IMG/VR virus record: IMGVR_UViG_3300010401_000005
Span: 1-64,000 of that record
Direction: 5' to 3' (one strand)
DNA length: 64,000 bases
From: a virus
Positions 35,512 through 64,000 of the stretch are shown here, one piece after another (the stretch's first letter is position 1; every line of letters starts with the position of its first letter). The notes under the pieces were generated by a model that worked only from the letters and a program-made list of their open reading frames with translations, ran no database searches and was not told the DNA's origin. The position numbers and the translations under genes were made by a program.

Positions 35512-38500
35512 TTATCTCCTTCGGGGTGTGATACCCGGTGTTTTAGGCAGGTTGATTTTGACTTTTCCGTTCTTATCTATCTTCACAATAGACGCGCCTC
35601 GCTGATTGGTGGAACCTTTCACAGGCAGACGATTGCGAAGACCCGGGATGCCCTCCTGTACGGTCTGTGTGAATCCTTTTTGGTCTCTTGGCACTACCTT
35701 GCCCTGACTGTCTCTATCGCCCAACTTTGCGCCCTGCTGCACGATCTGCGGAATAATCAGTCTCTTCACATACTGCCCCGCCGCCTTACCACCGCTGCCC
35801 TCATCCTTCAGGGCGTCTGCCACCTGCGCGGTACTCTCAAGACCTGGTGCCTCTTCCGCCATTCCTCTGATTGCCTGGTACGCACCGCTGCCGACCTTCC
35901 CCACACCCGTTTCGGCTTTACTCTGCTCGAAGCCCCGGCGTACAGTCGCCCAGAACTGCACGGCTTCGAGGAATGGGTTATGCGACAGGATCTTTGGCAC
36001 AGTCTTCCCGCCGATCTCCAGCCCACTCGCCTCCTTCGGTTCCCCGTCCGCACCTGTGCCGTAATCTGCACCGTGAGAGTAGAATCCTGCTGTCTGGAAC
36101 CACTTCGGCTGTGCGATACCCAGATACATTGCCACAAGGCCCAGACTACCATACTTGTACGCCCGCAAGATGTTATCCGCGACTTCAGGCGACATGGCTT
36201 CTCCGCTCGTCTTCGCTTCTTTCAGGGCATCAAAGTGGAGTTTTGCGCCACGAGCAACGCCTAACCCGGTCATATCCACCGCCTTACCGATGTAGTTTGC
36301 CGGAATCTTGACAATCGGTACCATCGTCCGCATGACGGCAGACAGGGTATTCAACGCACTGTTCGTCTGTGCTGAATACTTGCCCGACTTCGCCAGCATT
36401 TCAGGCTTACCGACGATCCCGTTCAAAACATCCGAAAGGGCGTTGTCACCCTGTAACTTGACGTTTTGTGCATCTACGGCTGCGCCCATGCCGATTTTTG
36501 CTACCTCTTCTGGGGTGGACAAATCCACCCCTGCCGCCCGTGCTTTTTGCAGGCGGATTTCGAGAGCCTTATGAAACTGCCCCGTTTGCAGGAAAGACTT
36601 CATCGCACCATGCAGCCGCCCAATATACTTTAACGGTCCTTCGTTCGCATTGTCCACATGGAGGTCTTTTCCTGATTGCACATCAAGGGAGTTAAACCCG
36701 TTTATGATGGTATCACGGGCATTGTTCAACGCTTCCCTACTCGCCATTTTCCGTAGCCCGGTCACTTCCGCAGACGGGCTGAAAGCGCCTTCACGGGGCG
36801 CAACTTCTCCGAGTGTCTTTCCTCCACCGGCAGGTAGTTTCGAGTAAGGCACGGAGGCAATATCGGCAAGGGCTTCAACGGGGGGTGCCCACAACGACGC
36901 GCCGCCCAACTTGGCAAACACGGAGACACCGGACAATTTGAACTGACGGGACATCTGCACGAACTTTTCGAGTGCGCTCTTGGGCTTCTGCGCCTCTATC
37001 CGCGCCTCTACCTGCTTCCGCAAATAATCCCGCTCCTGCATCAACTTCTGCACGTTCGCCGGAACCGCATCGGCCTTTGCCTTCCGCTCCGCTTTCGCTT
37101 TCTCGTTCGCCGTCTCCCACTTCTTCAATTCCTCCGGGGAAGACATCGCCCGCTCTAACTCTACCGCCTGCTTTTGAAGATCCTCAATCCGGTCTACTTT
37201 TGCCTTTGCATCGGCGCGTGCCTGCGGATCGCCTGCATACTTCGCCACATCCTTGTCCGAAATATCCGTCTGACTCTGCGCGGTCCTCTCCTTCGCCACT
37301 TGTTTACGGAGGTCGGCAAGTTGCTGCTCAAGTGCTGTCCTTGTAGGCTTCACGCCCGGTACAGTTGGCTTCAAATTACCTGTCGTGAGTTGTTCGGTCA
37401 GGTCGTCAATCTTCCCTTGAATGATTGCCTCTCGCTTTGCACTCGCTTCTTTCGCTCTCTCTGCTTTTGCCGCTGCCGCCTTTGCGTCTGCCGCTCTCTG
37501 AGGATTTGCTGCGTTGTCCGCGATTATCTGCTCAGATATTGGAATCTGTGCCGTGCGTTCCTTCGCCAACTGTACGCGGAGGTCTTTCAACTCCTGCTGC
37601 TGTGGCGATAACGTTCCTGGTTCCCGCTTTGCCAGAGGCTTCAAGTTCCCGCTCTCCAACTGTTGCCGAATGTCGTCGATCTTGGCCTGTAAATCCTGAA
37701 TCCGCTTCGGTCGGGCTGCTGCTTCTTTCCCCTCGTTTACCGCATCCCGTATCGCATACAGCACGTCGGGCACCGCATTGACAACGTTTGCGGCGCGGGT
37801 AGGCGCATTAGCGGTGTAGGCGGCTCTGAGGATTGCTTTTTCTGCCGGTACCAACTGCTCGTCATGGATGAGTTTATCCAGTATCCGAGGGCTACCGTCT
37901 TCTTCTGTGATGGCGTCGAGGAATGCCGATGCCTTCTGCCACCCCATACGCTTACCCAGAACCTCCGTAAAGTTAGAGGGTTCGGGTATCGTCTTCGCGT
38001 CGGGCAACTTCTGTGCTTCCGCCTTCACCTGCGCCCAGACGTGCTGCAACGTTGCGTCGTCGGCATTAGGTACGTCTTCGCGCATCCGTGCCGCCCAATC
38101 TCCGAACTTGCGGATACCGCCTTCAAGGTAATACCCGCCCACTTCTACGAGGTCGGGAATGAGGGAAGCGAGATGCGCCGCTGTCTGTGCGCCGAAGGGG
38201 TCTGCCTGTACCCCGATCTGTTTGAGTTTGTCGGCAATTCTCTGCTTCGCTTCGGCGGCTTTATCTGCCGTAAAGACAGTATTCTTGCTTCCGAAGTTTG
38301 TAGCCAACGGTTCCGGCGTACTCTGTGCGCTCTTGTTCTGTTGCTGACGTACCGAAGCAGGTTTCTTCTGCGCTTCAAGTGCCGCAAGTGCCGCGTCAAG
38401 TTCTGCTTGTTTCGCTTTCAAGGCATCGGCTGAATCTTTTAATTGCTTTGCGACAGTAGCGGAAACGTCACTTCCCTTCGCTCTTGTTGCCATTGAAACA

Positions 38501-41500
38501 ACATCGGGTGCGCTAGAGTAGTCTCGAATGACAATCATCTTGCGGGCATTAAACGCCGCCGATTGCTCCCGTCCACCCTTCACAAGTGCATCTTCGTTGA
38601 GGTTCGCGGCTTGCTGTACGGCGTCAAGATCCGCCTGCCGCTCCGCAATCTTCAACTTATCGCCGCCCGCTATGGCTTCATCCAATGCCTTACCTGCACG
38701 CTCGTAATCTGCTTTGATGCGTGTTCGGTCAAACGTCAACGCCCCGATTTCTACGGCGTCTAGCGGGCGCGGCTTGTCGGCAACCTTCTGCGCAAGTTCC
38801 ACCGGGTTGATTTGCCGAACGCTTTCATCCCGACTATCGAATGCCTGCACCGATGCCTTGCCCTGAACATAAGCGTCTCCCATTTTGGTATAAAGTTGAC
38901 GCTCTACCGGAGTCATGCCTCTCTGTGCGCGCTCCGCTTCCGTGATAGCGTTCTTCGCGCCTGTCGTTTGAGGGATAGGCTTTATTGGCGCTGTGGGGGC
39001 TTCTGTGGCAGCTTTTGGCGGTTCTACCGGCGACGTTGTAGGCGGGCGTGTCGGCGGTTTCACGGGAGGAGGAGACCCGGTTTTAGGCGTTGGGTTTTCA
39101 ACGGGACGTTCGAGGGTTTCCGTAGACGCAATCTGCCCGGAGACTTCTCGGAAATGCTGCAACGACGCGTCATAGATCGCCTGCAAATGCGGACGCACCG
39201 CCTCCCCGAATTCCTCCACCATTGCCTTCGACCAATCGGCAAAGGCGGTTGCACCCCTTACCAGATGGTCGGCACCGATGGCAAGGATGTCCGAGAGGTC
39301 GTAGTGTTCGAGACCTTTGAAGACGTTCGGGCCGGTGTTTAGGGTGCCGCCTTTGGCTTTGCGTTTGGCGGCGTTTTCGCGGGCTTTGTCGGCGGCGTCG
39401 GAGATACGTTCGACGATAGACGGCTTTACTTCTTGGGTGAAGAGACCGGTGTCTTCCACGCCCCGACTAACTTGTGGTGTTCCGGGTTCGGAGAGTCCGC
39501 TAACACCTGATCCGCTATTGAGTGAAACTGCTCCGGGGTTAGCGAGGTCCGCGACGCTTCTGCCGACGTGCGGACGGAGGGCGTCTGCAAGTTGCCCTGC
39601 GGCTTGTTCTTTTGTAAGTCTGCCATTTCCAACCTCTCCCGCAAGACGGGCAATTTCTGCCTTTACCGTGTCTTGCTGATACAACAAATTGAGACGTTCC
39701 GCAAGGGCTTTGTTGCTCTCAGCCATGCCCTGCGCTTCGGTCTGTCGTGCCGCTTCGTCTATGTGTTCGCCTTCGCGCAATCGTGCGCCGACAGGCTTCA
39801 ATAGATTACTACGTTCGGCAGACAGTTTCCTGCTTACGGCTTCCTTTAAGTCTACCCTAATTCCTCTTGTAGACTTTGCCGCTTCAAACTCCCCGCCGAA
39901 AAGATCCACTTGCCCCGACTTATCCGCAGCGAGTGTTCCATTCCTCTGGTCCTCAAGATACTCTAATGCAAGTTTCTGACCCTTCGCGTGCGTGGTATCG
40001 CCCCGTGTTGCGGATTCATCTATCGCGCCGTGCTGTGCTTCGGGTGTGAGACCTTCAACGCTCCCGATACCTGCCGCAACCGCTTCCGGTACGTCGCCGG
40101 ATCGGACACGGTTCAAAGAGGCTTCGTCAAGGGACATCAGTCCGCCCATGTTGCGGGCCATGTCGCCGGTCGTGGAAATCCCGCTTTTAGAGAAGTCTTC
40201 GGGCTTCATTCCTAACCCCTGCATGACTTCAATAGCATCTAAAGCGGTTCCTTTGCCGTCGCGGACGTTCTCCAACGCACCGCGAGCGCGAGCCGCCTGC
40301 ATGGTCCATCCGTCTTTAGCGTCCAGCACATTGACCGGAATATCATTCGGGACACTGACAGGTTTTCCGTCCGGCCCGATCTTCACAAAGGACTTTGCAC
40401 GGTTGGCAAGTTCTGCCCGGTGGTGTCCATTCACCGCGTAGTTATTGCCGTTCTCATCGCGCCATACCGTAAGGCGTCCGCCCTGATCTACGTCATAAAC
40501 ATCGGTTCCTTTGAGCACATCTGTCACTCCGGCTTTTGTGTCCACAATGCCCGACTTTTTGTACTGCATTCCGGGCAAGACTTTGATTTCAGCAGGCTTG
40601 AGTGTATCGGTTTTCACTGTCGGGGCGGTCGTAGGTTGCGGAACTTCGGCAGGCGTCAACTCCCGCGCCGGTGCTATCGGCGGAGTAACCCCCGCTTCCG
40701 GTGCTACCGTTTCAGGCACCTGCTGACGAGAAGCATTGATAGCCGCCACCCTCTGCCGTGCCGCTTCTGCCGCCGCCGTTATCTTTGCCACATATTCCGG
40801 CTGTGTGGGCGTAGAAACGTCAGGGGGCGTAACAGTCGGGGGAATAGGGTTTGCGATCTCTCCTGCCTGTACAGACGGCGTAGCGGCGTTCTGAGATGCA
40901 GACGGCTCCGCAACAGGTTCAGGAATACGAGGAACGCTAAACGTCTCCTTCGTCTGCACATTCTGCACCGTCGCCGTTCTTTTATTCCCACCCGTCACCC
41001 GCAGTTTCGTTCCGTCCGTTGCATGAACCGTCTCCCCTGGTCGCGCCTCCGTCAGATCCATATTCACCACCGGCTGCGGTGAGGGGTGCCGTAATCTTTG
41101 TTGTTCGAGGAATGCAGGGACTTCGGCAGGCGGCATGGTCTCTTTTGCGCCCGGAATATCCCCCCGTTTCGGCGTCTGAATCGTAAAGTTATCCCCGTCC
41201 AACGTCACCCGCGTCGGCACGGACTTCCCTTCAGCGTCAATCAGCGGCGTGACGGCAGAATCGTGACCTTTCGTTATGTGTGCGGCAATGAGGGTACCGA
41301 ACACGGTCCCTGCGCCCGCCCGTCCCGCTTTCTCGTAATCGCCCTTCTGTATGGCGTCCACAAACTCAGGCGCATTTGTTCCCAACTGGTCGAGCGCAAA
41401 TCCTGCCTCTGCCAACTTCTGCGCAATCCCTCCGAGTTGACCGAGTTTGCCTAATCCGCCGACAAAGGCACCCCCTGCAAGCATCAGAGGATCGTTCAAC

Positions 41501-42303
41501 AGCCCGGTGCCGACAGAGGAAACGCCATGCGCTGCGTCATAGGTGGGGTTGCCGGGTGCCATCGCCGCCGAAATCTGCGGGTAGGCATTCAACTGCCGCG
41601 CCGTCTCTTCGGGCGCAACAATCGCCTGCGCGGGTGGAGTCGCCATATTCGCCGCTGTCCCGCCCACCTGCGCTAAAGTATCGTTCATCTTCTCAGAAGA
41701 AATGCCGACTTTGCCGAGGAAATCTTTTTTCTGCCACGCCGGAGCGTTCTCCCAATACTGCTTTACTGCTTGTGGGCTTGCAAGATGCAGTCCTACAAGC
41801 GCCGTCGCCAACTTATCCCCGAATGCAGACGACAGATCGGAATAGCCGGGTATCGCGCCTGGTCCCGTCCCACTTCCCACCTTCACGCCCAACAGTTTAC
41901 TTTGCGTATCGTCAGGGTTGCCCGAAACCACATTCCCGCCCGCAACGTTCTGATACTGCTGCGCAAAGTTGGGGACGCCGGGAATAGGTATCGCGGTCGT
42001 CGGCGGTGCGAAGGGGTTGGTGGTCGGCACCATCGGGGCAGGATTGGCAAAGGCGTTTCCTGTGGCAGTCGAGAGCATCGTCTGCGCGGCAGTAGGTCGT
42101 GAGGCAGTTTTGGCGCGTTGAACAGGGACAGAGGCGGCACCGAGCGCGGCACCGGAAAGAATACCAAGTCCGGGGTTTGCGGCAGGCGTGGGGGTGGGCT
42201 TCCCGAATACCTTGTCGGAAATCTCGTCTATCTCATCGTCCGACAGAGGATTGTCGGCTTCAATGACCTTTGTTTGACCATTGCGTGAGAGTTGGTAACG
42301 CAT
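35512..42303 (-). CDS. Giant internal virion / polyvalent protein with ParB-like domain (2263 aa)
   Basis: Residues ~570-700 contain NYAVNGHHRAELANR, a ParB-like nuclease signature, followed by a helical region typical of the DdrB-ParB domain of phage 'polyvalent proteins'. Two copies of a linker-associated motif occur near 1010-1045 (LVRGATAFADWSKAMVEEFG) and 1380-1410 (LEGGIRKFGDWAARM). Long coiled coils span ~1450-1760. The last ~450 residues (FAKLGGASLWAPPVEALADI on) are a conserved hydrophobic region of large podovirus internal proteins. Such proteins are packaged in the head and injected. Pro/Thr-rich linkers separate the parts. Confidence 0.75.
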   Translation of the reverse strand: MRYQLSRNGQTKVIEADNPLSDDEIDEISDKVFGKPTPTPAANPGLGILSGAALGAASVPVQRAKTASRPTAAQTMLSTATGNAFANPAPMVPTTNPFAPPTTAIPIPGVPNFAQQYQNVAGGNVVSGNPDDTQSKLLGVKVGSGTGPGAIPGYSDLSSAFGDKLATALVGLHLASPQAVKQYWENAPAWQKKDFLGKVGISSEKMNDTLAQVGGTAANMATPPAQAIVAPEETARQLNAYPQISAAMAPGNPTYDAAHGVSSVGTGLLNDPLMLAGGAFVGGLGKLGQLGGIAQKLAEAGFALDQLGTNAPEFVDAIQKGDYEKAGRAGAGTVFGTLIAAHITKGHDSAVTPLIDAEGKSVPTRVTLDGDNFTIQTPKRGDIPGAKETMPPAEVPAFLEQQRLRHPSPQPVVNMDLTEARPGETVHATDGTKLRVTGGNKRTATVQNVQTKETFSVPRIPEPVAEPSASQNAATPSVQAGEIANPIPPTVTPPDVSTPTQPEYVAKITAAAEAARQRVAAINASRQQVPETVAPEAGVTPPIAPARELTPAEVPQPTTAPTVKTDTLKPAEIKVLPGMQYKKSGIVDTKAGVTDVLKGTDVYDVDQGGRLTVWRDENGNNYAVNGHHRAELANRAKSFVKIGPDGKPVSVPNDIPVNVLDAKDGWTMQAARARGALENVRDGKGTALDAIEVMQGLGMKPEDFSKSGISTTGDMARNMGGLMSLDEASLNRVRSGDVPEAVAAGIGSVEGLTPEAQHGAIDESATRGDTTHAKGQKLALEYLEDQRNGTLAADKSGQVDLFGGEFEAAKSTRGIRVDLKEAVSRKLSAERSNLLKPVGARLREGEHIDEAARQTEAQGMAESNKALAERLNLLYQQDTVKAEIARLAGEVGNGRLTKEQAAGQLADALRPHVGRSVADLANPGAVSLNSGSGVSGLSEPGTPQVSRGVEDTGLFTQEVKPSIVERISDAADKARENAAKRKAKGGTLNTGPNVFKGLEHYDLSDILAIGADHLVRGATAFADWSKAMVEEFGEAVRPHLQAIYDASLQHFREVSGQIASTETLERPVENPTPKTGSPPPVKPPTRPPTTSPVEPPKAATEAPTAPIKPIPQTTGAKNAITEAERAQRGMTPVERQLYTKMGDAYVQGKASVQAFDSRDESVRQINPVELAQKVADKPRPLDAVEIGALTFDRTRIKADYERAGKALDEAIAGGDKLKIAERQADLDAVQQAANLNEDALVKGGREQSAAFNARKMIVIRDYSSAPDVVSMATRAKGSDVSATVAKQLKDSADALKAKQAELDAALAALEAQKKPASVRQQQNKSAQSTPEPLATNFGSKNTVFTADKAAEAKQRIADKLKQIGVQADPFGAQTAAHLASLIPDLVEVGGYYLEGGIRKFGDWAARMREDVPNADDATLQHVWAQVKAEAQKLPDAKTIPEPSNFTEVLGKRMGWQKASAFLDAITEEDGSPRILDKLIHDEQLVPAEKAILRAAYTANAPTRAANVVNAVPDVLYAIRDAVNEGKEAAARPKRIQDLQAKIDDIRQQLESGNLKPLAKREPGTLSPQQQELKDLRVQLAKERTAQIPISEQIIADNAANPQRAADAKAAAAKAERAKEASAKREAIIQGKIDDLTEQLTTGNLKPTVPGVKPTRTALEQQLADLRKQVAKERTAQSQTDISDKDVAKYAGDPQARADAKAKVDRIEDLQKQAVELERAMSSPEELKKWETANEKAKAERKAKADAVPANVQKLMQERDYLRKQVEARIEAQKPKSALEKFVQMSRQFKLSGVSVFAKLGGASLWAPPVEALADIASVPYSKLPAGGGKTLGEVAPREGAFSPSAEVTGLRKMASREALNNARDTIINGFNSLDVQSGKDLHVDNANEGPLKYIGRLHGAMKSFLQTGQFHKALEIRLQKARAAGVDLSTPEEVAKIGMGAAVDAQNVKLQGDNALSDVLNGIVGKPEMLAKSGKYSAQTNSALNTLSAVMRTMVPIVKIPANYIGKAVDMTGLGVARGAKLHFDALKEAKTSGEAMSPEVADNILRAYKYGSLGLVAMYLGIAQPKWFQTAGFYSHGADYGTGADGEPKEASGLEIGGKTVPKILSHNPFLEAVQFWATVRRGFEQSKAETGVGKVGSGAYQAIRGMAEEAPGLESTAQVADALKDEGSGGKAAGQYVKRLIIPQIVQQGAKLGDRDSQGKVVPRDQKGFTQTVQEGIPGLRNRLPVKGSTNQRGASIVKIDKNGKVKINLPKTPGITPRRR

Positions 42304-53392: not shown

Positions 53393-54204
53393 TACTTGCC
53401 TCCCTGTGCTTGACCCGTCGCCTGCATACGCTGCTGTTGCGTGTTTATGGGCGTCATCATCAGGATGTTTCGGGCGACTTCTACCCCGGTGTCATCGTAC
53501 CCGTTCTTCCACTGATAGACCTGAAGCATGGATTGTGCGGCCAACTGCTGAAACGCCGGGTATCGGCTCTGTGCTTCCACCGACTGCGCTTCACGAGCAG
53601 AGAGCAACATCACGGCCCAATAGACGAGACAGAATTCGTAGTCGTCCGGGATATAGGCAGGAACGTCGGTGTCGGTAAGCAAAGCACTTTGACCCGATGC
53701 GGCAGAGAATGTGAGAATCCCCGCTTCGGTAGGGGCAGGCAAAAGGCCGATCTGTACACCGGTTGTGATAAACTGAGAAGGACGCGTCGCGGGTTTGTAC
53801 TGCTGAAACTGCGTATATGCCTTCGTGGAACCGTAATATTGCTGAGGTTGGAGGCGGTTGGTGTTCCCATCCGTTCCTGTCCATAGCACGTCAAGAATCT
53901 CGGTAGCGTGAAATACTCCACCACCGGGCGGTTCAATAGTTGACACATTCACCCATGCAACCGAACGCTTGTCAGTCGTATAAGCAGGTACAGAAATCGT
54001 GTAATCCGTGAATGGCCCCACCCGAACGATTCTATTCAGGGCTTCGATAGCCTGATTGATAGCGGTGTTGATGGTGGGGTTGTCAGGGTCAGGTTGGGCA
54101 GTCGGAAGTGCGCCTGCCGCACCGGAGGAGGTGTCGATAGGCGGAACGATAGCGAGAAGCCTGCGCACGTCGTCTCTCATATCCGCTTGACTGTGTAATG
54201 CCAT
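53392..54204 (-). CDS. Head-to-tail adaptor-like protein B (270 aa)
   Basis: Shares with protein A, in order: NTAINQAIEALNRI, strand YTISVPAYTTDKRSVAWVN, NRLQPQQYYG, QIGLLPAPTEAGILTF, YIPDDYEFCLVYWAVML. Ancient tandem duplication is likely. Expected location: ring below the portal. A short intergenic gap (17 nt) separates it from the divergent SGNH gene. Confidence 0.65.
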   Translation of the reverse strand: MALHSQADMRDDVRRLLAIVPPIDTSSGAAGALPTAQPDPDNPTINTAINQAIEALNRIVRVGPFTDYTISVPAYTTDKRSVAWVNVSTIEPPGGGVFHATEILDVLWTGTDGNTNRLQPQQYYGSTKAYTQFQQYKPATRPSQFITTGVQIGLLPAPTEAGILTFSAASGQSALLTDTDVPAYIPDDYEFCLVYWAVMLLSAREAQSVEAQSRYPAFQQLAAQSMLQVYQWKNGYDDTGVEVARNILMMTPINTQQQRMQATGQAQGGK

Positions 54205-54221
54205 TTAGAAAGGATTCCCCT

Positions 54222-54794
54222 ATGCGCTACCTGATACCGATTGTTCTCGCCGCTGTTGTCGGATGTGGCAGTGGTTCATCTCAAAAGTATACAATGTATA
54301 CGAAAACTGTCGTCTTCTTAGGTGATTCCCTTGCAGGCGGGTCGTCACACGCTCCGAACGTCACCACCTACCCGAACCTTATCCCCGGCATCGTCAGCAT
54401 CAACAGAGGAATCGGCGGTGACACTTCGGCACAAATGCTTGCCCGAATCCAAGAGTGCTTTGTCCCACACCCGGAAACACTTGTCCTCGAATGCGGATTG
54501 AACGACATTCAGAACGGCGTCTCTGCGGCGTCCTACCGCGAAAATGTTGAAGCCATCATCCAGCAGTGTCACGTCCATAATATCAAAGTTATCCTCTGCA
54601 CCGTACCGAATACCAGTGTGGGCGATCCTGCCCCACTCAACGCCTCTGTGCGCTCTCTTGCCACCGAATACGGGTGTAAGGTCGCGGACATCGAATTAGC
54701 CTTACAGAAACCCGGTCTCCTTGAAGCGGATGGCGAGCATCCCAATCAACAAGGCCAAAACCTGATCGCTGCCGTCATCGGTCAGGCATTGTAG
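54222..54794 (+). CDS. SGNH/GDSL hydrolase lipoprotein (190 aa), plus strand
   Basis: Start at 54222 with AAAGGAT upstream. A lipoprotein signal (hydrophobic IPIVLAAVVGC, Cys-15) precedes the SGNH motifs: GDSL (34-37), GIGGDT (63-68), GLND (92-95) and DxxH (D170, H173). These enzymes cleave esters, such as acetyl groups on surface sugars. A phage-encoded lipoprotein made in infected or lysogenic cells could alter the receptor polysaccharide (superinfection exclusion), an inference. Inserted against the direction of the late operon, so probably an acquired moron. Confidence 0.85.
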   Translation: MRYLIPIVLAAVVGCGSGSSQKYTMYTKTVVFLGDSLAGGSSHAPNVTTYPNLIPGIVSINRGIGGDTSAQMLARIQECFVPHPETLVLECGLNDIQNGVSAASYRENVEAIIQQCHVHNIKVILCTVPNTSVGDPAPLNASVRSLATEYGCKVADIELALQKPGLLEADGEHPNQQGQNLIAAVIGQAL

Positions 54795-55516
54795 TACAGT
54801 GTCAACGTCAAGTTCGTGGTCGTGAACTGCGCCGTGTTGCCGGTATAGACGGCGCTGAAAAAGTCTATGATCGTCCTGAGCGTCAGCACCCCGCCCGCCG
54901 CCGCGTTGATGAGTGCTAGAATGCTTGCGTTAGTAGAAGGACTGCTAGGTGAGAAGGACGGGTCAAAATGCCCGTCACCTGTCACCACCTGACTACTCGC
55001 CACGCCCTCTATAGAGGCAGGCGGCGAGAGTTCCAACTGAATCGGCACTCCTAAAATCGGGTAGGTATACGACCAATCGCCTGCCCATTGGAACGTAAAG
55101 GCGGTATAGGTTTGGGCAGGCACCGAGAAGGTGATATTCGGGCCTGTGAACGATGAAGCAATATCGTCACAGGTGATGACAAAACCCTGATTAGAGGCAT
55201 ACAGCACCACCATGCTCGCGTCGGGGTTGGTGCCTCCGCCCGTGCCGCCCTCCGATGCAGGTGTATCCCTCCCCCCATTTGTCAGGAAAACCGAACCTCC
55301 TTGAATGTCTACGGAGGACAACCCGACGCCCTGACCCTCTGTTTTATCCCAGTCGAAGCCGTTACCCGTGCCGTCTACCTGTGTGCCGTAGTCGTCCGTT
55401 ACGATCAGGTCAGAGTAGGTCCAGAAGCCGGTTTGTTCGTCCTGCGTTCTGAACCCCTGCTGACGTAGTAACTGAGGGTTATTTCGGTAAGGTAGAGGGA
55501 ATCTGCGTAATGGCAT
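54782..55516 (-). CDS. Virion protein, beta-rich (244 aa)
   Basis: Sequences such as ITFSVPAQTYTAFTFQWAGD and VLTLRTIIDFFSAVYTGN are beta-rich with many Thr/Ser. Adjacent to the decoration and adaptor genes. Probably a minor capsid or head-tail component; no family recognised. Its end overlaps the SGNH gene by 13 nt. Confidence 0.5.
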   Translation of the reverse strand: MPLRRFPLPYRNNPQLLRQQGFRTQDEQTGFWTYSDLIVTDDYGTQVDGTGNGFDWDKTEGQGVGLSSVDIQGGSVFLTNGGRDTPASEGGTGGGTNPDASMVVLYASNQGFVITCDDIASSFTGPNITFSVPAQTYTAFTFQWAGDWSYTYPILGVPIQLELSPPASIEGVASSQVVTGDGHFDPSFSPSSPSTNASILALINAAAGGVLTLRTIIDFFSAVYTGNTAQFTTTNLTLTLYYNA

Positions 55517-55704
55517 TACTCGTCCTTTTCAGGATCTTCCACGGTAATTTCCACGGTTGGTGTGAACGCTATCTTCATGGCGTTGAATTCCATCAACGCG
55601 CCTCGGATCTCGTCCACCGCCTGCTTATCCTGTTCAAACGCCCTCTGCGCCAGCAGTTGACTGAGTTCAACACTCCGCTTCTCGATGTACTCTAAAACGT
55701 CCAT
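55516..55704 (-). CDS. Small helical virion-block protein (62 aa)
   Basis: Helical start (VLEYIEKRSVELSQLLAQRA) and an acidic beta end (TVEITVEDPEKDE). GAAAGGAG 8 nt before the ATG. Preceded by a pseudoknotted leader (55725-55801). Function unknown. Confidence 0.5.
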   Translation of the reverse strand: MDVLEYIEKRSVELSQLLAQRAFEQDKQAVDEIRGALMEFNAMKIAFTPTVEITVEDPEKDE

Positions 55705-55724
55705 TGCATTCTCCTTTCAATGCG

Positions 55725-55801
55725 CCTTCGTTTAAGTTGTTACCGGGCAGAGCGGCGAAGGAAAGACCGCCTCTTCGGGCTGCACTCCCTAGCCCGGTAA
55801 C
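55725..55801 (-). promoter_or_regulatory. Virion-leader RNA element 1 (pseudoknot)
   Basis: A perfect 10-bp stem GTTACCGGGC/GCCCGGTAAC (55739-55748 with 55792-55801) with TAGG right after its 5' arm on the transcript; inside, a GCGG/CCGC hairpin. CCTTCG in that hairpin's loop (55756-55761 on the map) can pair with CGAAGG just past the stem (55725-55730). Same topology as elements 2 and 3. Confidence 0.6.
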
Positions 55802-55806
55802 GCAGT

Positions 55807-57486
55807 TTAGACCGGAACGAGGGTCACGGAGACAATCGCGCCAGTGATGGAGCCAATCGTACCGCCCCACTTCACCGCTAACCGATCCCCTGCCGCAAGG
55901 GTCTTCGTCGCCACGGTGGTAGTCACGCTTCCGACCACGCGCGTGTTCGCCGTGGTGTCAAAGGTCATCACGGCAGTAAGCACGCTCGTACCGCCGCCTG
56001 GGGCCGTGGTGCCGGTGTCCTTGATAACGTCCACGGTCGGAACCGTCGCCGTCGAGGAGCAGGAACAGGATGCTGCCTTCACGCGATAGGCACGGTTCGC
56101 CATGAAGAAGGTATAGGAACTTCCCGACACCGGGACGCTTGCGGGCAGGTATTGCTGCCAGATCGCATCAAACAGCCCCGCCACAGAGTTCACCAACACT
56201 TCACCAGGCACACCAGTACTGACTGCCGCGCCGGGGATAAGGTTGATGTTCCCACCCGCCGCCGTGCCGCCCGTACCACCCGCGCCTGCTGTCAGTGTGA
56301 TCGCACCACCCGCGATAGAGCCGGAACCGTTGCCGCCCGCGCCTGCCGTGATGGTGACTGCGCCTGCCGCGCCGCCCGTCGTGGAACCCGTACCGCCCGC
56401 GCCCGCCGTGATGGCAACCCCACCGCCCGCACCACCTGTGACGGCATTGGTTCCGCCGCCTGCGCCTGCGGAGAGGGTAAGCAATCCGCCTGCGCCTCCG
56501 GTGCCGGTAGAAGTGACGACTGCGCCACCTGCGCCCGTGGAGACCGTGACCGCCCCGCCTGCGCCACCCGTGGAGGTGCCAGAGGTACCGCCTGCATTGC
56601 TGCCGAGGGTGACTGCCCCGGACGCACCGCCTGCGGTTCCGGTTGTGCCGGTTGCACCTGCTGCCGTGGTGATGGTCATGGCACCGGATGCCGCGCCTGC
56701 GCCTGCGGTTGGTGCGCCTGTCCCGATAGTCAGGACACCCGACGCGGAGGTTGTGCCGCCGACGCCGGTAGAGATTGCCACCGCCCCCGACAACCCACTT
56801 GTACCACCGGCACCGGAGGTAATCGTTACCGCCCCTCCTGCGCCTGTGGTCGTGCCCACGCCGCCGATCATCGAAACCGCACCACCTGTGCCAGCCGTTG
56901 AGAGCGCCGCGCCTCCGGTGAGAGATGCTGCGCCGCCGTTACCCGTCGCGCCTGTTCCAGACCCACCGCCGATGACGCTTGCTGCGCCTCCTGCGCCGGT
57001 TCCAGCCGCACCGCCTGCACCACCGGTCAGGTTCACGGCACCACCCGCGCCGGAGGTGGTGCCACCTCTGCCGCCTGTGATACCGCCCGCGCCGCCAGCC
57101 CCGGTCAGATCCGCTGCGCCGCCTGTGAGAGTGGTTGCGCCACCGTTCCCGCTGCCTTTGCCGACGCCGCCCGTGCCGGTGACTGCCCCGCCCGCGCCGT
57201 TTGTGCTGAGTGCCGCACCGCCGACAGAGGTGACGGCACCACCTGCGCCGGTTGCGCCTGCACCCGACGCACCGCCTGTGATGACGACCGCACCGCCTGC
57301 AAACGCGCCATTTCCTGCGCCGCCTGTTGCCGTTGCGTTGCCGCCTGCACTGCTCGATCCCGCCGCGCCGATGATACCCGCTGTGGTGATGGTGGTGACG
57401 TTCACGCCGTTGAGTTGTATGATACCGGTGCCGTCCCCATCGGGTCCGTTCACGGCAAGGTTTGATAGATGCGTATATTCAGGCAT
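55807..57486 (-). CDS. Gly/Ala/Thr repeat virion protein (559 aa)
   Basis: Residues ~45-420 consist of about 20 imperfect repeats with the core GGAVTITxGAGGTxxxG, likely a repetitive beta-helical or polyGly rod. The N-terminal 40 residues and C-terminal ~130 residues are ordinary: the end (YRVKAASCSCSSTATVPTVD, LAAGDRLAVKW) resembles the small beta domain found at the end of phage head-fibre/decoration proteins. Position between capsid and adaptor genes suggests a capsid fibre. Base composition is strongly GC-rich and repetitive. Confidence 0.6.
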   Translation of the reverse strand: MPEYTHLSNLAVNGPDGDGTGIIQLNGVNVTTITTAGIIGAAGSSSAGGNATATGGAGNGAFAGGAVVITGGASGAGATGAGGAVTSVGGAALSTNGAGGAVTGTGGVGKGSGNGGATTLTGGAADLTGAGGAGGITGGRGGTTSGAGGAVNLTGGAGGAAGTGAGGAASVIGGGSGTGATGNGGAASLTGGAALSTAGTGGAVSMIGGVGTTTGAGGAVTITSGAGGTSGLSGAVAISTGVGGTTSASGVLTIGTGAPTAGAGAASGAMTITTAAGATGTTGTAGGASGAVTLGSNAGGTSGTSTGGAGGAVTVSTGAGGAVVTSTGTGGAGGLLTLSAGAGGGTNAVTGGAGGGVAITAGAGGTGSTTGGAAGAVTITAGAGGNGSGSIAGGAITLTAGAGGTGGTAAGGNINLIPGAAVSTGVPGEVLVNSVAGLFDAIWQQYLPASVPVSGSSYTFFMANRAYRVKAASCSCSSTATVPTVDVIKDTGTTAPGGGTSVLTAVMTFDTTANTRVVGSVTTTVATKTLAAGDRLAVKWGGTIGSITGAIVSVTLVPV

Positions 57487-57523
57487 TGCTCACTTCCTTT
57501 CTGCTTTATTGTAAGCAATGACA

Positions 57524-58462
57524 TTAAGCTCCTGCGTTTCCGTAGCAGCCCCTCCAGTCCGACGAACCACAGACAAAACGTGAAGTAGATACAAACACGT
57601 ATGCCTGTACTCCAATCGCGTAATCGGTGGTGATTTCGGCCTCCTGCCGGATAAGGAACTGGAGGTAATGGTTATCCGCCACGATGAACCAACTGTTATT
57701 CGTGCCGGTGGAACCCGATGCCTGGAAGTAGGGCCACTCGATAACGTCCGCATCGTTTTTGTAGATGTTGAGGTTTCGATCCGCCGTCCCTCTCTCCCAA
57801 TCGCCGCGCATGATCTGATTCGCCACGCGATGCAGGACAGGGTTCACCACCAATACACGCGGGTTGTTCTGCAAAAACTGCGTGTTGTTCGCGGCTTTCT
57901 GCTGCCGGATGTTCACCGCGCCCGCGTCATAGGTGGCAAAGGACAGGTCGCCGCCCGATGAGGCGCGATTGCTGACGGTTACGCCGCTATTGGCCTGACT
58001 GATCGGGTGCGCGGTGGAGAAGAGAGGCTGTCCGTCTGCCATCTGCGGGGTATTGTTGCCGACAGTGGCGAAGGCGATGTTTTTGAAGAAGTTCGCCGCC
58101 ACGATCTCCTTGAGCGTCTGATGGGACACAGCCAACTGACCGCCCTTTGTGGGAAGGACTTTCGCCATGACGCCGTACTGGTCGTCCTTCCAGTCCTCGT
58201 ACGCCAATATATCACCGAGGGCGTAGTTGACCGGGGTGTACCGCTTACCGAAGGACGGCTTGAACTGACCCTGCGCGACGCCTTCACCGGGTCCACGGCG
58301 CAGCGGGAGACCGTACATCTCCCAGTTTTGTTCATCCGTATACCTGCCGTCCATTTGCCCCATGTGGAAAATCTGAGGCAGCACGGTCGGCCATGCGTCG
58401 TATGCTATTCCAAACTGCTTGGAGATGCCTTTGCTGAAAAGTGGAGTCAGGTCTTGACTCAT
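57524..58462 (-). CDS. Major capsid protein, HK97 fold (312 aa)
   Basis: Contains the features of phage capsid proteins of this group: E-loop region (YTPVNYALGDILAYEDWKDD), KEIVAANFFKNIAFATVGN, DGQPLFSTAHPI, RQQKAANNTQFLQNNPRVLV and VNPVLHRVANQIM. Length fits HK97-fold capsids without a delta domain, which a separate scaffold (60149-61003) would assist. Expressed behind a pseudoknotted leader (58504-58578). Confidence 0.85.
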   Translation of the reverse strand: MSQDLTPLFSKGISKQFGIAYDAWPTVLPQIFHMGQMDGRYTDEQNWEMYGLPLRRGPGEGVAQGQFKPSFGKRYTPVNYALGDILAYEDWKDDQYGVMAKVLPTKGGQLAVSHQTLKEIVAANFFKNIAFATVGNNTPQMADGQPLFSTAHPISQANSGVTVSNRASSGGDLSFATYDAGAVNIRQQKAANNTQFLQNNPRVLVVNPVLHRVANQIMRGDWERGTADRNLNIYKNDADVIEWPYFQASGSTGTNNSWFIVADNHYLQFLIRQEAEITTDYAIGVQAYVFVSTSRFVCGSSDWRGCYGNAGA

Positions 58463-58467
58463 CTGTG

Positions 58468-58578
58468 GTGAGGTTCCTTGTCCTCACTCGCCCTCGTGAA
58501 ACGCGCCCTGACAACGAATATCTATCCGGGGGAAAATCTCCAGGGCGGGAGAGTTTCAGGGGCCAGCCTATCCCCCGG
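58468..58578 (-). promoter_or_regulatory. Virion-leader RNA element 2 (capsid gene leader)
   Basis: Outer stem CCGGGGGA/TCCCCCGG (58526-58533 with 58571-58578), then TAGGCTG..CTGAAA, an inner TCTCC/GGAGA hairpin (58537-58552), and a loop CAGGGCG (58541-58547) that pairs perfectly with CGCCCTG (58504-58510): an H-type pseudoknot. Next, GTGAGG/CCTCAC (58468-58487) places the AAGGA ribosome site in a hairpin loop before the capsid ATG. Confidence 0.65.
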
Positions 58579-58595
58579 AACTGGTAACGCGGGGT

Positions 58596-59261
58596 TTACG
58601 TCGCCGCCGCGTAAAAGATACCGGTAAGGTACTGCTGATACGCAGGCTTGACCGAGAACAGGTACTTGCACTGCGTGGAGGAGACATTGAAGAACGGATC
58701 GGTCTCGTTGACCGCCGTCACCTCGCCCACGATGTCGGCAGTGACCGAGGACTCATTTGCCGCAAAGTCCACGGTGTTGTAAGTCTGAATCCCGATGGTG
58801 TGGCCGATCTTGGTAGAGGAGACCGTCACCGCCGCATTACCCGACGCCTGCGCACGGATATAGAACTCGCTGTCGTCGTTGAACACCTGCACGAGCAGGC
58901 GGGCGTTGCCAGTCACGGGGTCAGTGTCGATACCTGCGGCGTAGGAGGGCAGAGGGTACTGCGGCGCGGCACCTGCGGCGACAGTAGAAGGTGGGGTGAC
59001 GCCTCCGACCGGCGCACCTGCCGAATCGGTCTTCACGTCGTGCTTCGCCACGCCCAACAGTCCCGCCACGGAGGTGTTGGTAAAACTTGCGGCAATCATC
59101 GTGCTTGTCAGTTTGCAGACCCTTACCGTACTGTTGGCGTTGTTGAGAACAACGATGTCACCGGCGCTGATGGTCTGCGATACGTCCACGTCATAGCTTC
59201 GCGTCAGTCCCGCCCCCATATTGGAGGAGCCTGCACGCGCAAAATCAACAGAATGAGACAC
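58596..59261 (-). CDS. Capsid decoration-like protein (221 aa)
   Basis: GTG start. Beta-rich protein (YDVDVSQTISAGDIVVLNNA, LLVQVFNDDSEFYIRA) immediately upstream of the capsid gene, the usual place of a head decoration or stabilisation protein. Shares composition with other decoration proteins; family not pinned down. Confidence 0.65.
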   Translation of the reverse strand: MSHSVDFARAGSSNMGAGLTRSYDVDVSQTISAGDIVVLNNANSTVRVCKLTSTMIAASFTNTSVAGLLGVAKHDVKTDSAGAPVGGVTPPSTVAAGAAPQYPLPSYAAGIDTDPVTGNARLLVQVFNDDSEFYIRAQASGNAAVTVSSTKIGHTIGIQTYNTVDFAANESSVTADIVGEVTAVNETDPFFNVSSTQCKYLFSVKPAYQQYLTGIFYAAAT

Positions 59262-59299
59262 TGTTCGTTTTGTCCTGTCTCACATCCCCCAAGTGAAGA

Positions 59300-59371
59300 A
59301 CCCCATGCTATTATCCGGCAACGGGCCTCCGGGGTGGGAGGCTTTCAGTGATCAGCCTAAGATGCCGGATA
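59300..59371 (-). promoter_or_regulatory. Virion-leader RNA element 3 (decoration gene leader)
   Basis: Outer 9-bp stem TATCCGGCA/TGCCGGATA (59312-59320 with 59363-59371), then TAGGCTG..CTGAAA as in element 2, inner GCCTCC/GGAGGC hairpin (59325-59342) and loop GGGGT (59331-59335) pairing with ACCCC (59300-59304). The TAGGCTG/CTGAAA text shared with element 2 while the stem sequences differ implies a conserved RNA fold. Confidence 0.65.
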
Positions 59372-62622: not shown

Positions 62623-62821
62623 CTCTCCGAACTCCCCTTTCTTTCCAGAACTCTGCCGACATTCGGTCAAGAAAATCCGTTCGATGTACGTCCAACGCTT
62701 CGGAAATATCACGCATCGCATATTGAACAGGCGTATAACCGCGAAACAGATCGTCAGCAATATCGTCAATGCTGCACGGTTCCCAATAGGGCAACGAATC
62801 AGGCCAAATGTAAGAACTCAT
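62576..62821 (-). CDS. Hypothetical 81-aa protein next to portal
   Basis: Start overlaps the portal stop (ATGA). Helical protein: MSSYIWPDSLPYWEPCSI, VQYAMRDISEALDVHR and KERGVRRDEQVFDC. Real by coupling; unknown. Confidence 0.5.
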   Translation of the reverse strand: MSSYIWPDSLPYWEPCSIDDIADDLFRGYTPVQYAMRDISEALDVHRTDFLDRMSAEFWKERGVRRDEQVFDCKTQSLAQI

Positions 62822-64000
62822 TGCTGTAACAACGCTCCCCCACTCCCCGCAGGAGCGGTATTCAACCCACCCTGAGACGCCAATATCTGCTGTATCACCT
62901 GCGGCGGCACACCCGACGCCACCAACTGCGCGATATTGGCCGGAAGTTCCTGCGGTTGTGGCATCTGTGGCTCCGGGCCTATCCACTCCTCCGGTTGCCG
63001 TTCCCCCATATCCAAGAGGGCTTGACGCACGCCGTGCCAAATCAACGGCGCGAACTGGGGGCTGATCTGCATGACCTGCGCGAGTGCAGCGAAATAGCCC
63101 ATCTGGGCCTGAATCTTCGCCTGTGTCAACTTCAACCGCATCTCCGGTGTCACGGTCGTGCTTGTAGCAGTAGGGACGTAGCGGTACAGCCCCCGCATGT
63201 TCTGCGCACTCACTTCCATCTGCTTGCCCTGATAGTTGAAACTCTCCTGCAACCCTTCGCCCTCAAACTGCGCATGCAATGCCACAATGCGGGCGGCTAA
63301 CTCCTCCATGCTGCTTTGAAAGCCTTGAAGGAAGAGGTCGAACTTGGAGTCGGTGGCGGCAAGGACGTTCTGAATCTCCGCATCCTTGCGAACCTTCGCC
63401 TGCAACTCCCCATACCCTTCCGCTGCTACAAGCCCTTTGCCTCTCCCGACAATCGCGCCTTGTAACTCCATGCCTTTTTCGGCCTTACTGCCCCATTCCA
63501 GCGTCCGCAGGGTGTTCGGGTCGTCTTCGGGCAGTATCGCGCCGGGGTAGATGCTGAACGCGTTGTACTTTTGAATCCACTCCGCAGGGGCTACGAGTAC
63601 CGGTGCCATCTCCAGGTCCATGCCATCTATGGTCAACTGAAGGTTTGCGTTCGCTTCATCTTGGAGCGTCGCCAGCAGTTGCATAGCACCGATTCCGAGC
63701 AGGCGATTCGGACGCGGGAGCATCGAAAAACTGATGTATGGCCGATCCGTGTAGGGTGATATGTCCATCAGGAACACAATCTGCTGTTGAGGGCATAACA
63801 TACACATCAGGTCATCGGCCCTATACTGCTCCGGTATGGCGTCTTCATCGTCGCGCAGTTTCGGCATACGCCCGAAGTAGAGGAAGCACTCATAAAAACC
63901 GTCTTCGCGCACACTGGCGTTGTTCGAGGTGCCGTCGTATTCGTTGCGCACCGTCCGCAGTAAGTCGCCGCCCATAGAGTGCGTGGGGCCGAGGCGAATC
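62818..64000 (-). CDS. Portal protein, N-terminus beyond window edge
   Basis: 394 residues are visible; the frame is open to the right edge, so at least the N-terminal third is missing. Core portal text: ISFSMLPRPNRLLGIGAMQL, LATLQDEANANLQLTIDGMD, WGSKAEKGMELQGAIVGRGK, AATDSKFDLFLQGFQSS, plus the C-terminal NIAQLVASGVPPQVIQQILA. Portal dodecamers form the DNA gate of the head. Position upstream of the scaffold and capsid genes agrees. Confidence 0.85.
   Translation of the reverse strand, partial: IRLGPTHSMGGDLLRTVRNEYDGTSNNASVREDGFYECFLYFGRMPKLRDDEDAIPEQYRADDLMCMLCPQQQIVFLMDISPYTDRPYISFSMLPRPNRLLGIGAMQLLATLQDEANANLQLTIDGMDLEMAPVLVAPAEWIQKYNAFSIYPGAILPEDDPNTLRTLEWGSKAEKGMELQGAIVGRGKGLVAAEGYGELQAKVRKDAEIQNVLAATDSKFDLFLQGFQSSMEELAARIVALHAQFEGEGLQESFNYQGKQMEVSAQNMRGLYRYVPTATSTTVTPEMRLKLTQAKIQAQMGYFAALAQVMQISPQFAPLIWHGVRQALLDMGERQPEEWIGPEPQMPQPQELPANIAQLVASGVPPQVIQQILASQGGLNTAPAGSGGALLQQ

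Follow-up and report, generated by a model that had tools for sequence, protein, structure and literature searches.

Pseudoknotted int-alpA-class leaders before virion genes of a viral contig as candidate cis-acting switches of translation initiation

Three junctions within a virion gene cluster

The 64,000-nucleotide (nt) stretch of viral DNA considered here, positions 1 to 64,000 of the IMG/VR record IMGVR_UViG_3300010401_000005 and hereafter called the window, contains three pseudoknotted three-way junctions, E1, E2 and E3, all on its minus strand and all situated between virion genes (Table 1). An initial annotation, made from the sequence alone, had already described them as three pseudoknotted leaders of one class and considered control of capsid output, by translation repression or mRNA stability, to be plausible. 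The class, its position in front of virion genes and the plausibility of translation control are all supported by the analysis below, and so is the capsid identity of the gene behind E2, which matches major head families of PHROG, while the label "decoration" given to the gene behind E3 was a guess to which no family match corresponds. The minus strand, the short P2 helix, the known Rfam family, the second site complementary to the loop and the hairpins at the Shine-Dalgarno sequence (SD) or start codon did not figure in that annotation.

The window elements carry the UA, GAAA-type and CU/UU joining strands of the int-alpA three-way junction, in the form GAAGA/CU in E1 and UA-GAAAC/UU in E2, and with extra nucleotides at P1 and J3/1 in E3. 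In each of them, as in int-alpA, 5-7 bp can form between the P3 loop and nucleotides lying 3' of P1; folding of the single sequence misfolded E2. When the leaders were shuffled, the observed pair of loop-complementary sites was matched in 47 of 2000 cases for E1, in none of 2000 for E2 and in 45 of 2000 for E3.

Table 1. Parts of the leaders E1-E3 and the genes behind them (window coordinates; aa, amino acids; ORF, open reading frame; hpA and hpB, hairpins at the SD or start codon)
Feature	Position	Strand	Description
E1 core	55739..55801	-	Three-way junction P1/P2/P3, int-alpA RF02996; 3' of the stop of the 559-aa gene (55807), 5' of the 62-aa gene
E1 P1, 10 bp	55792-55801 with 55739-55748	-	Followed by UAGG and the P3 hairpin
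E1 apical loop UCUUUCCUUCG	55756-55766	-	Pairing partner of both site (i) and site (ii)
E1 site (i) CGAAGG	55725-55730	-	6-bp pseudoknot with the apical loop
E1 hpA GCAUU-GAAAGGAG-AAUGC	55706..55723	-	Loop 55711-55718 contains SD and site (ii); -5.0 kcal/mol
Start codon AUG behind E1	55702-55704	-	
62-aa gene behind E1	55516..55704	-	ORF; no PHROG match
E2 core	58525..58579	-	Divergent int-alpA-class junction UAGGCUG-GCCC-CUGAAA; P3 UCUCC/GGAGA, junction UU
E2 P1, 9 bp	58571-58579 with 58525-58533	-	
E2 site (i) CAGGGCG	58504..58510	-	Complement of loop CGCCCU (58542-58547)
E2 hpA UUCAC-GAGGGCGA-GUGAG	58483..58500	-	Loop contains site (ii) AGGGCG (58489-58494)
E2 hpB GUGAGG-ACAAGGAA-CCUCAC	58468..58487	-	Loop contains capsid-gene SD AAGGA; 5' arm common to hpA
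Major head protein gene behind E2	57524..58462	-	PHROG 4523/371/133
E3 core	59313..59370	-	Divergent int-alpA-class junction UAGGCUG-AUCA-CUGAAA; P3 GCCUCC/GGAGGC
E3 P1, 8 bp, 3 nt ahead of UAGG	59363-59370 with 59313-59320	-	
E3 site (i) UGGGGUU	59299..59305	-	Complement of loop CACCCC (59331-59336)
E3 hpA UUCAC-UUGGGGGAU-GUGAG	59279..59297	-	Loop contains site (ii) GGGGG
E3 hpB UGAGACA..UGUCUCA	59254..59282	-	Encloses GUG start codon (59259-59261); excludes hpA
221-aa gene behind E3	58596..59261	-	ORF in virion neighbourhood; no PHROG match; role unproven

Family membership and covariation

E1 matches the Rfam family int-alpA (RF02996) with 40.7 bits, the gathering score being 35.8. A covariance model built from 93 sequences, none of them from the window (R3), ranks E1 (34.9 bits), E2 (19.0 bits) and E3 (18.6 bits) first, second and third on both strands of the 64 kb, with E-values of 2.5e-7, 0.006 and 0.008, which are rough for models of this kind; the fourth match reaches only 12.0 bits. 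Because a model free of window sequence places these three on top, E2 and E3 are, by sequence and fold comparison, probably divergent members of the int-alpA class.

The consensus pattern of int-alpA was matched in at least 120 viral contigs, and the matches bear P1, P2, P3 and the pseudoknot. In an alignment of 62 of these viral sequences together with E1 (A1, giving model R1), both sides of a pair changed in 241 cells, against 93 ± 7 in shuffles; this narrow model did not recover E2 and E3, since its anchor pattern fixed P3. The TAGGCTG(4 nt)CTGAAA motif that the initial annotation had noticed is indeed common to E2 and E3, and the literal pattern TAGGCTG..CTGAAA..CTCC gave chance matches only in the viral contigs. 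It was only through the form TAGGCTGATCAC(C/T)GAAA that the E2/E3 subtype surfaced, and this second subtype, UAGGCUGAUCAC(C/U)GAAA, is found in 38 contigs, with a P3 that varies in sequence and keeps its pairing and with junctions of the GAAAA/CU or GAAAG/UU type. UAGGCUG..C(U/C)GAAA is kept in unrelated phages, with the restriction that DNA anchors bias such samples toward fixed bases, so that the invariance of anchored bases is no evidence. In the R3 alignment all 16 pairs show changes on both sides, and 414 helix cells are changed on both sides versus 141 ± 10 in shuffled alignments; judged from these alignments, P1, P2 and P3 covary strongly. Neither of the two results that the initial annotation had named as speaking against its reading, absent covariation and a motif not kept elsewhere, thus came about.

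A hammerhead ribozyme, with a CUGANGA core opposite GAAA, was considered and rejected: CUGAUCA occurs in only one subtype and there without stem II, most members have a P2 such as GGGUAGCUCCC instead, and the window yields no Rfam hammerhead match.

Placement before start codons

Among 105 leaders anchored only on UAG and P2, 97 show an SD together with a same-strand start codon 24-46 nt past P1, as against 6.1% of random positions of the same loci. In the viral and bacterial leader sets described below, this distance has a median of 34 nt. This linkage argues against the Rfam type "sRNA" and for a cis-acting leader. The genes that follow are very diverse: for 97 viral downstream proteins, HNH and endonuclease VII-type nucleases are the commonest Pfam and PHROG classes, others being DUF1376, Rha, Dam, DUF6387, AP2 and tail proteins. 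Genes for replication proteins and methylases and some head genes also follow members of the class, and of ten picked proteins three are tail assembly chaperones, two are major tail proteins and one weakly matches a major head protein. A Seg-like homing endonuclease gene lies behind the element of Rhizobium phage RHph_X2_25. The placement between integrase and alpA genes was not found for E1-E3, which stand between virion genes. In bacteria the elements turn up sporadically and in few copies (in one family, 9 of 79 genomes, with 1-4 copies), a pattern to be expected of prophages and mobile elements.

In Pseudomonas phage vB_PaS_IME307 (L403:2493-3056), the annotated coding sequence starts upstream of an int-alpA-like element and spans it; its start codon is probably misannotated.

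One loop with two complementary sites

Two segments downstream are complementary to the apical loop. Site (i) forms the classical pseudoknot; site (ii) repeats the complement at or beside the SD, between site (i) and the start, and is enclosed by a small hairpin, hpA, in whose loop it lies. Base composition and the generic anti-SD character of the loops were controlled for by pairing each loop with leaders that belong to other elements (own versus cross permutation). Across 80 leaders whose loops are distinct, namely the window's own three and 77 taken from viral contigs, this comparison gave z = 20.7 for loop:(i), 10.3 for loop:(ii) and 13.3 for hpA. The result was replicated in bacterial genomes, where 70 leaders gave z values of 16.7, 9.2 and 11.4, respectively, with the 63 bacterial loops that do not occur in the viral set (14.9, 8.8 and 10.2) and with the set anchored only on UAG and P2 (18.5 and 10.7). 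The best SD site overlaps site (ii) in 69 of 79 leaders. With mean pairing energies of -8.4 kcal/mol for loop:(i) and -7.0 kcal/mol for loop:(ii), the two calculated interactions are near enough to compete.

When the capsid (57524-58462) and a 385-aa head-tail adaptor-like protein (62818-63975) served as protein queries, the viral contigs yielded no relatives, and the phage relatives of the capsid are only 25-29% identical; the window's own leaders could therefore not be compared with orthologues. Such a comparison was made on 17 leaders before DUF1376-type genes, a class named from Pfam matches and a shared N-terminus. In these orthologous leaders the loop, site (i) and site (ii) vary in concert: the loop UCGUCAC goes with GUGACGA and GACGAGG, CCUUCAC with GUGAAGG and UGAAGGG, UUGUCAC with GUGACAA and GACAAGG, and UCAUCAC with GUGAUGA and UGAUGA, in the order (i) and (ii). 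For the 7 distinct loop cores of this set, the observed fit was reached by 8 and 31 of 20000 permutations. Moreover, in several leaders (L310, L314, L322, L335, L356 and L399) the copy (ii) lies 5' of a separate SD of the GAGG, AAGG or AGG type, so that site (ii) cannot simply be equated with the SD.

E1 is a short leader, whose hpA carries the SD directly before the AUG. E2 and E3 have sites (i) and (ii) and, in addition, a further hairpin, hpB, over the SD (E2) or the start codon (E3); since hpA and hpB share an arm they are mutually exclusive, and hpB is more stable than hpA taken alone. Inspection by eye found the same long-leader layout in L031 and L095, which precede major tail protein genes; a second hairpin sharing an arm with hpA was seen only in these four long leaders before virion-cluster genes (L031, L095, E2 and E3).

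Proposed mechanism and competing explanations

We consider it probable, with considerable room for doubt, that the elements act in cis as 5' leaders of the int-alpA class, each controlling, by means of its two-site loop, translation initiation of the next cistron in a polycistronic mRNA. The comparisons above show the fold class, the covariation of the helices, the two complementarities, the hairpin hpA and a close linkage to start codons; we infer from the sequence that both states form, which of them is ON or OFF and that the loop switches between them. The rigid three-way junction would present the apical loop, which would pair with one copy of its complement at a time, either with site (i) about 7 nt past P1 or with site (ii), at the SD or immediately 5' of it within the hpA loop. 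In the common short leaders the SD would stay accessible while the loop is paired with site (i) (ON), and the kissing interaction loop:(ii) would mask it (OFF). In the long virion leaders, that is E2, E3 and, by eye, the two before major tail protein genes, the SD or start is predicted to lie inside hpB, and loop:(ii) would stabilise hpA and break hpB, thereby turning translation ON with reversed logic. The balance might be shifted by a ligand or protein that binds the conserved junction, or by a ribosome finishing the upstream gene.

Several points weigh against this interpretation. E2 and E3 score far below E1 and have no RF02996 match in an Rfam scan up to an E-value of 5, and a search of the whole record with the default filter returned E1 only. 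Site (i) is energetically preferred over site (ii) in 76% of leaders, the exclusion of hpA by hpB appears in four leaders inspected by eye, and the two states are proposed from complementarity, the whole case resting on sequence comparison. The genes behind the elements are, moreover, so diverse that one metabolite signal for all of them is difficult to suggest.

A different role for the ribosome is assumed in translational coupling, in which the upstream cistron stops just short of P1 and ribosomes that terminate there or pass through would open the fold and release the loop. Downstream translation would then be tied to, or insulated from, that of the upstream gene, on the pattern of the repZ pseudoknot of IncB/ColIb plasmids. 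The spacing is suggestive in this respect, the stop of an upstream same-strand ORF lying a median of 9 nt before P1 wherever such an ORF was detected (53 of 124 leaders) and about 4-16 nt before it in the window, but the remaining leaders have no such ORF found near P1, so coupling may not be general, and we regard it as an unlikely account of the class. It is less likely still that the compact pseudoknotted junction serves mRNA stability or processing, protecting the downstream cistron or marking a processing site while initiation is not switched: although compactness, the loop-to-3' pseudoknot and the position between cistrons are all in keeping with this part of the initial proposal, it leaves the second site at the SD, hpA and the fixed distance to the start codon unexplained. 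The other part of that proposal, in which a capsid or scaffold protein would bind the leaders and repress its own synthesis, could draw on the virion gene cluster around E1-E3 and on the major head gene behind E2 and likewise behind one relative, L086; yet what follows most relatives is unrelated, frequently an HNH or endonuclease VII nuclease gene, and a capsid-specific operator therefore cannot explain a class with such diverse downstream genes, which makes this reading very improbable. Least probable is a trans-acting small RNA with an anti-SD-like loop aimed at other mRNAs, as the Rfam type "Gene; sRNA" would have it, given that 92% of the elements stand at a fixed short distance before a same-strand start codon versus 6% by chance and that the loop matches its own leader.

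An attenuator with an intrinsic terminator, and a promoter function, were also rejected: no terminator-like site, a G+C-rich hairpin with a T run behind it, is present at the leaders on the minus strand and the count is at chance level; likewise, promoter- or terminator-like sites are not in excess around the window elements, which argues against attenuation.

Returning to the two-site leader, a wider speculation can be attached to it, which we hold to be doubtful: int-alpA RNAs might constitute a phage-wide, horizontally spread translational switch whose conserved junction senses a common signal of infection stage or host state and moves the loop between its two sites, and since short leaders would mask the SD and virion leaders would invert the response through their added hairpin, the one signal would turn early or selfish genes off and virion genes on.

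Other features of the window

The 559-aa protein encoded just upstream of E1 (55807-57486, minus strand) has a long repetitive stretch rich in Gly, Ala and Thr, and the strand opposite its gene is open for more than 400 codons. Within the virion gene cluster, a 198-aa ORF on the opposite strand (54198-54794, plus) shows a lipoprotein-like signal and SGNH-hydrolase-like motifs. Farther away are a giant ORF of 2263 aa (35512-42303, minus), possibly a large virion-associated protein, and a terminase large subunit-like protein (703-2469, minus) about 26% identical to the terminases of Stx-phage and Vibrio phage.

Significance and comparison with known systems

The int-alpA RNAs have been an orphan family of unknown function, and the comparisons above suggest that they are likely to be cis-acting leaders controlling translation rather than the presumed small RNAs, most likely a switch for making the next protein. 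In a full-text literature search on int-alpA the family was only listed and no proposal of a function was met, although a published one may have been missed. The mechanism is concrete and can be mutated at the loop, site (i) and site (ii), it predicts divergent members missed by Rfam, and, since leaders of the int-alpA type occur in far more than a hundred viral contigs and also in the genomes of bacteria from several phyla, it raises the question of which signal is common to so many unrelated phage genes.

RF02996 itself shares with the window elements the P1/UA/P2/GAAAA/P3/CU three-way junction and the pseudoknot of the P3 loop, but its model of 71 positions ends at site (i) and omits site (ii), the SD hairpin and the placement in cis before start codons, and the int and alpA context that gave the family its name is absent here. 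Competition of pseudoknots at the SD is familiar from the SAM-II and preQ1 translational riboswitches; the likeness is one of architecture, and diverse phage genes take the place of a single pathway, with no ligand known. In the repZ leader of IncB/ColIb plasmids (PK-repZ), which is controlled by an antisense RNA, a loop likewise pairs upstream of the SD, and this pairing is linked to the opening of an SD hairpin; the Rfam scan found no PK-repZ match in the window.

Among phages, the leader of T4 gene 32 is a pseudoknot bound by gp32, placed 67 nt upstream and serving a single gene (PMC3014915). Like the elements described here, it stands upstream of a start codon and controls translation, whereas a three-way junction and a two-site loop have not been described for it (PMC3014915). 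Hairpins that sequester the SD occur at T4 e, soc, 49 and I-TevI and at Aeh1 mobE (PMC3014915); they cover the SD or start and also serve homing endonucleases, HNH and endonuclease VII-type nucleases being the commonest downstream class in our set, and, unlike the leaders discussed here, they have not been described with a junction or a competing pseudoknot (PMC3014915). The gene 32 pseudoknot and the SD hairpins of homing endonuclease genes are phage precedents for parts of the proposed mechanism (PMC3014915).

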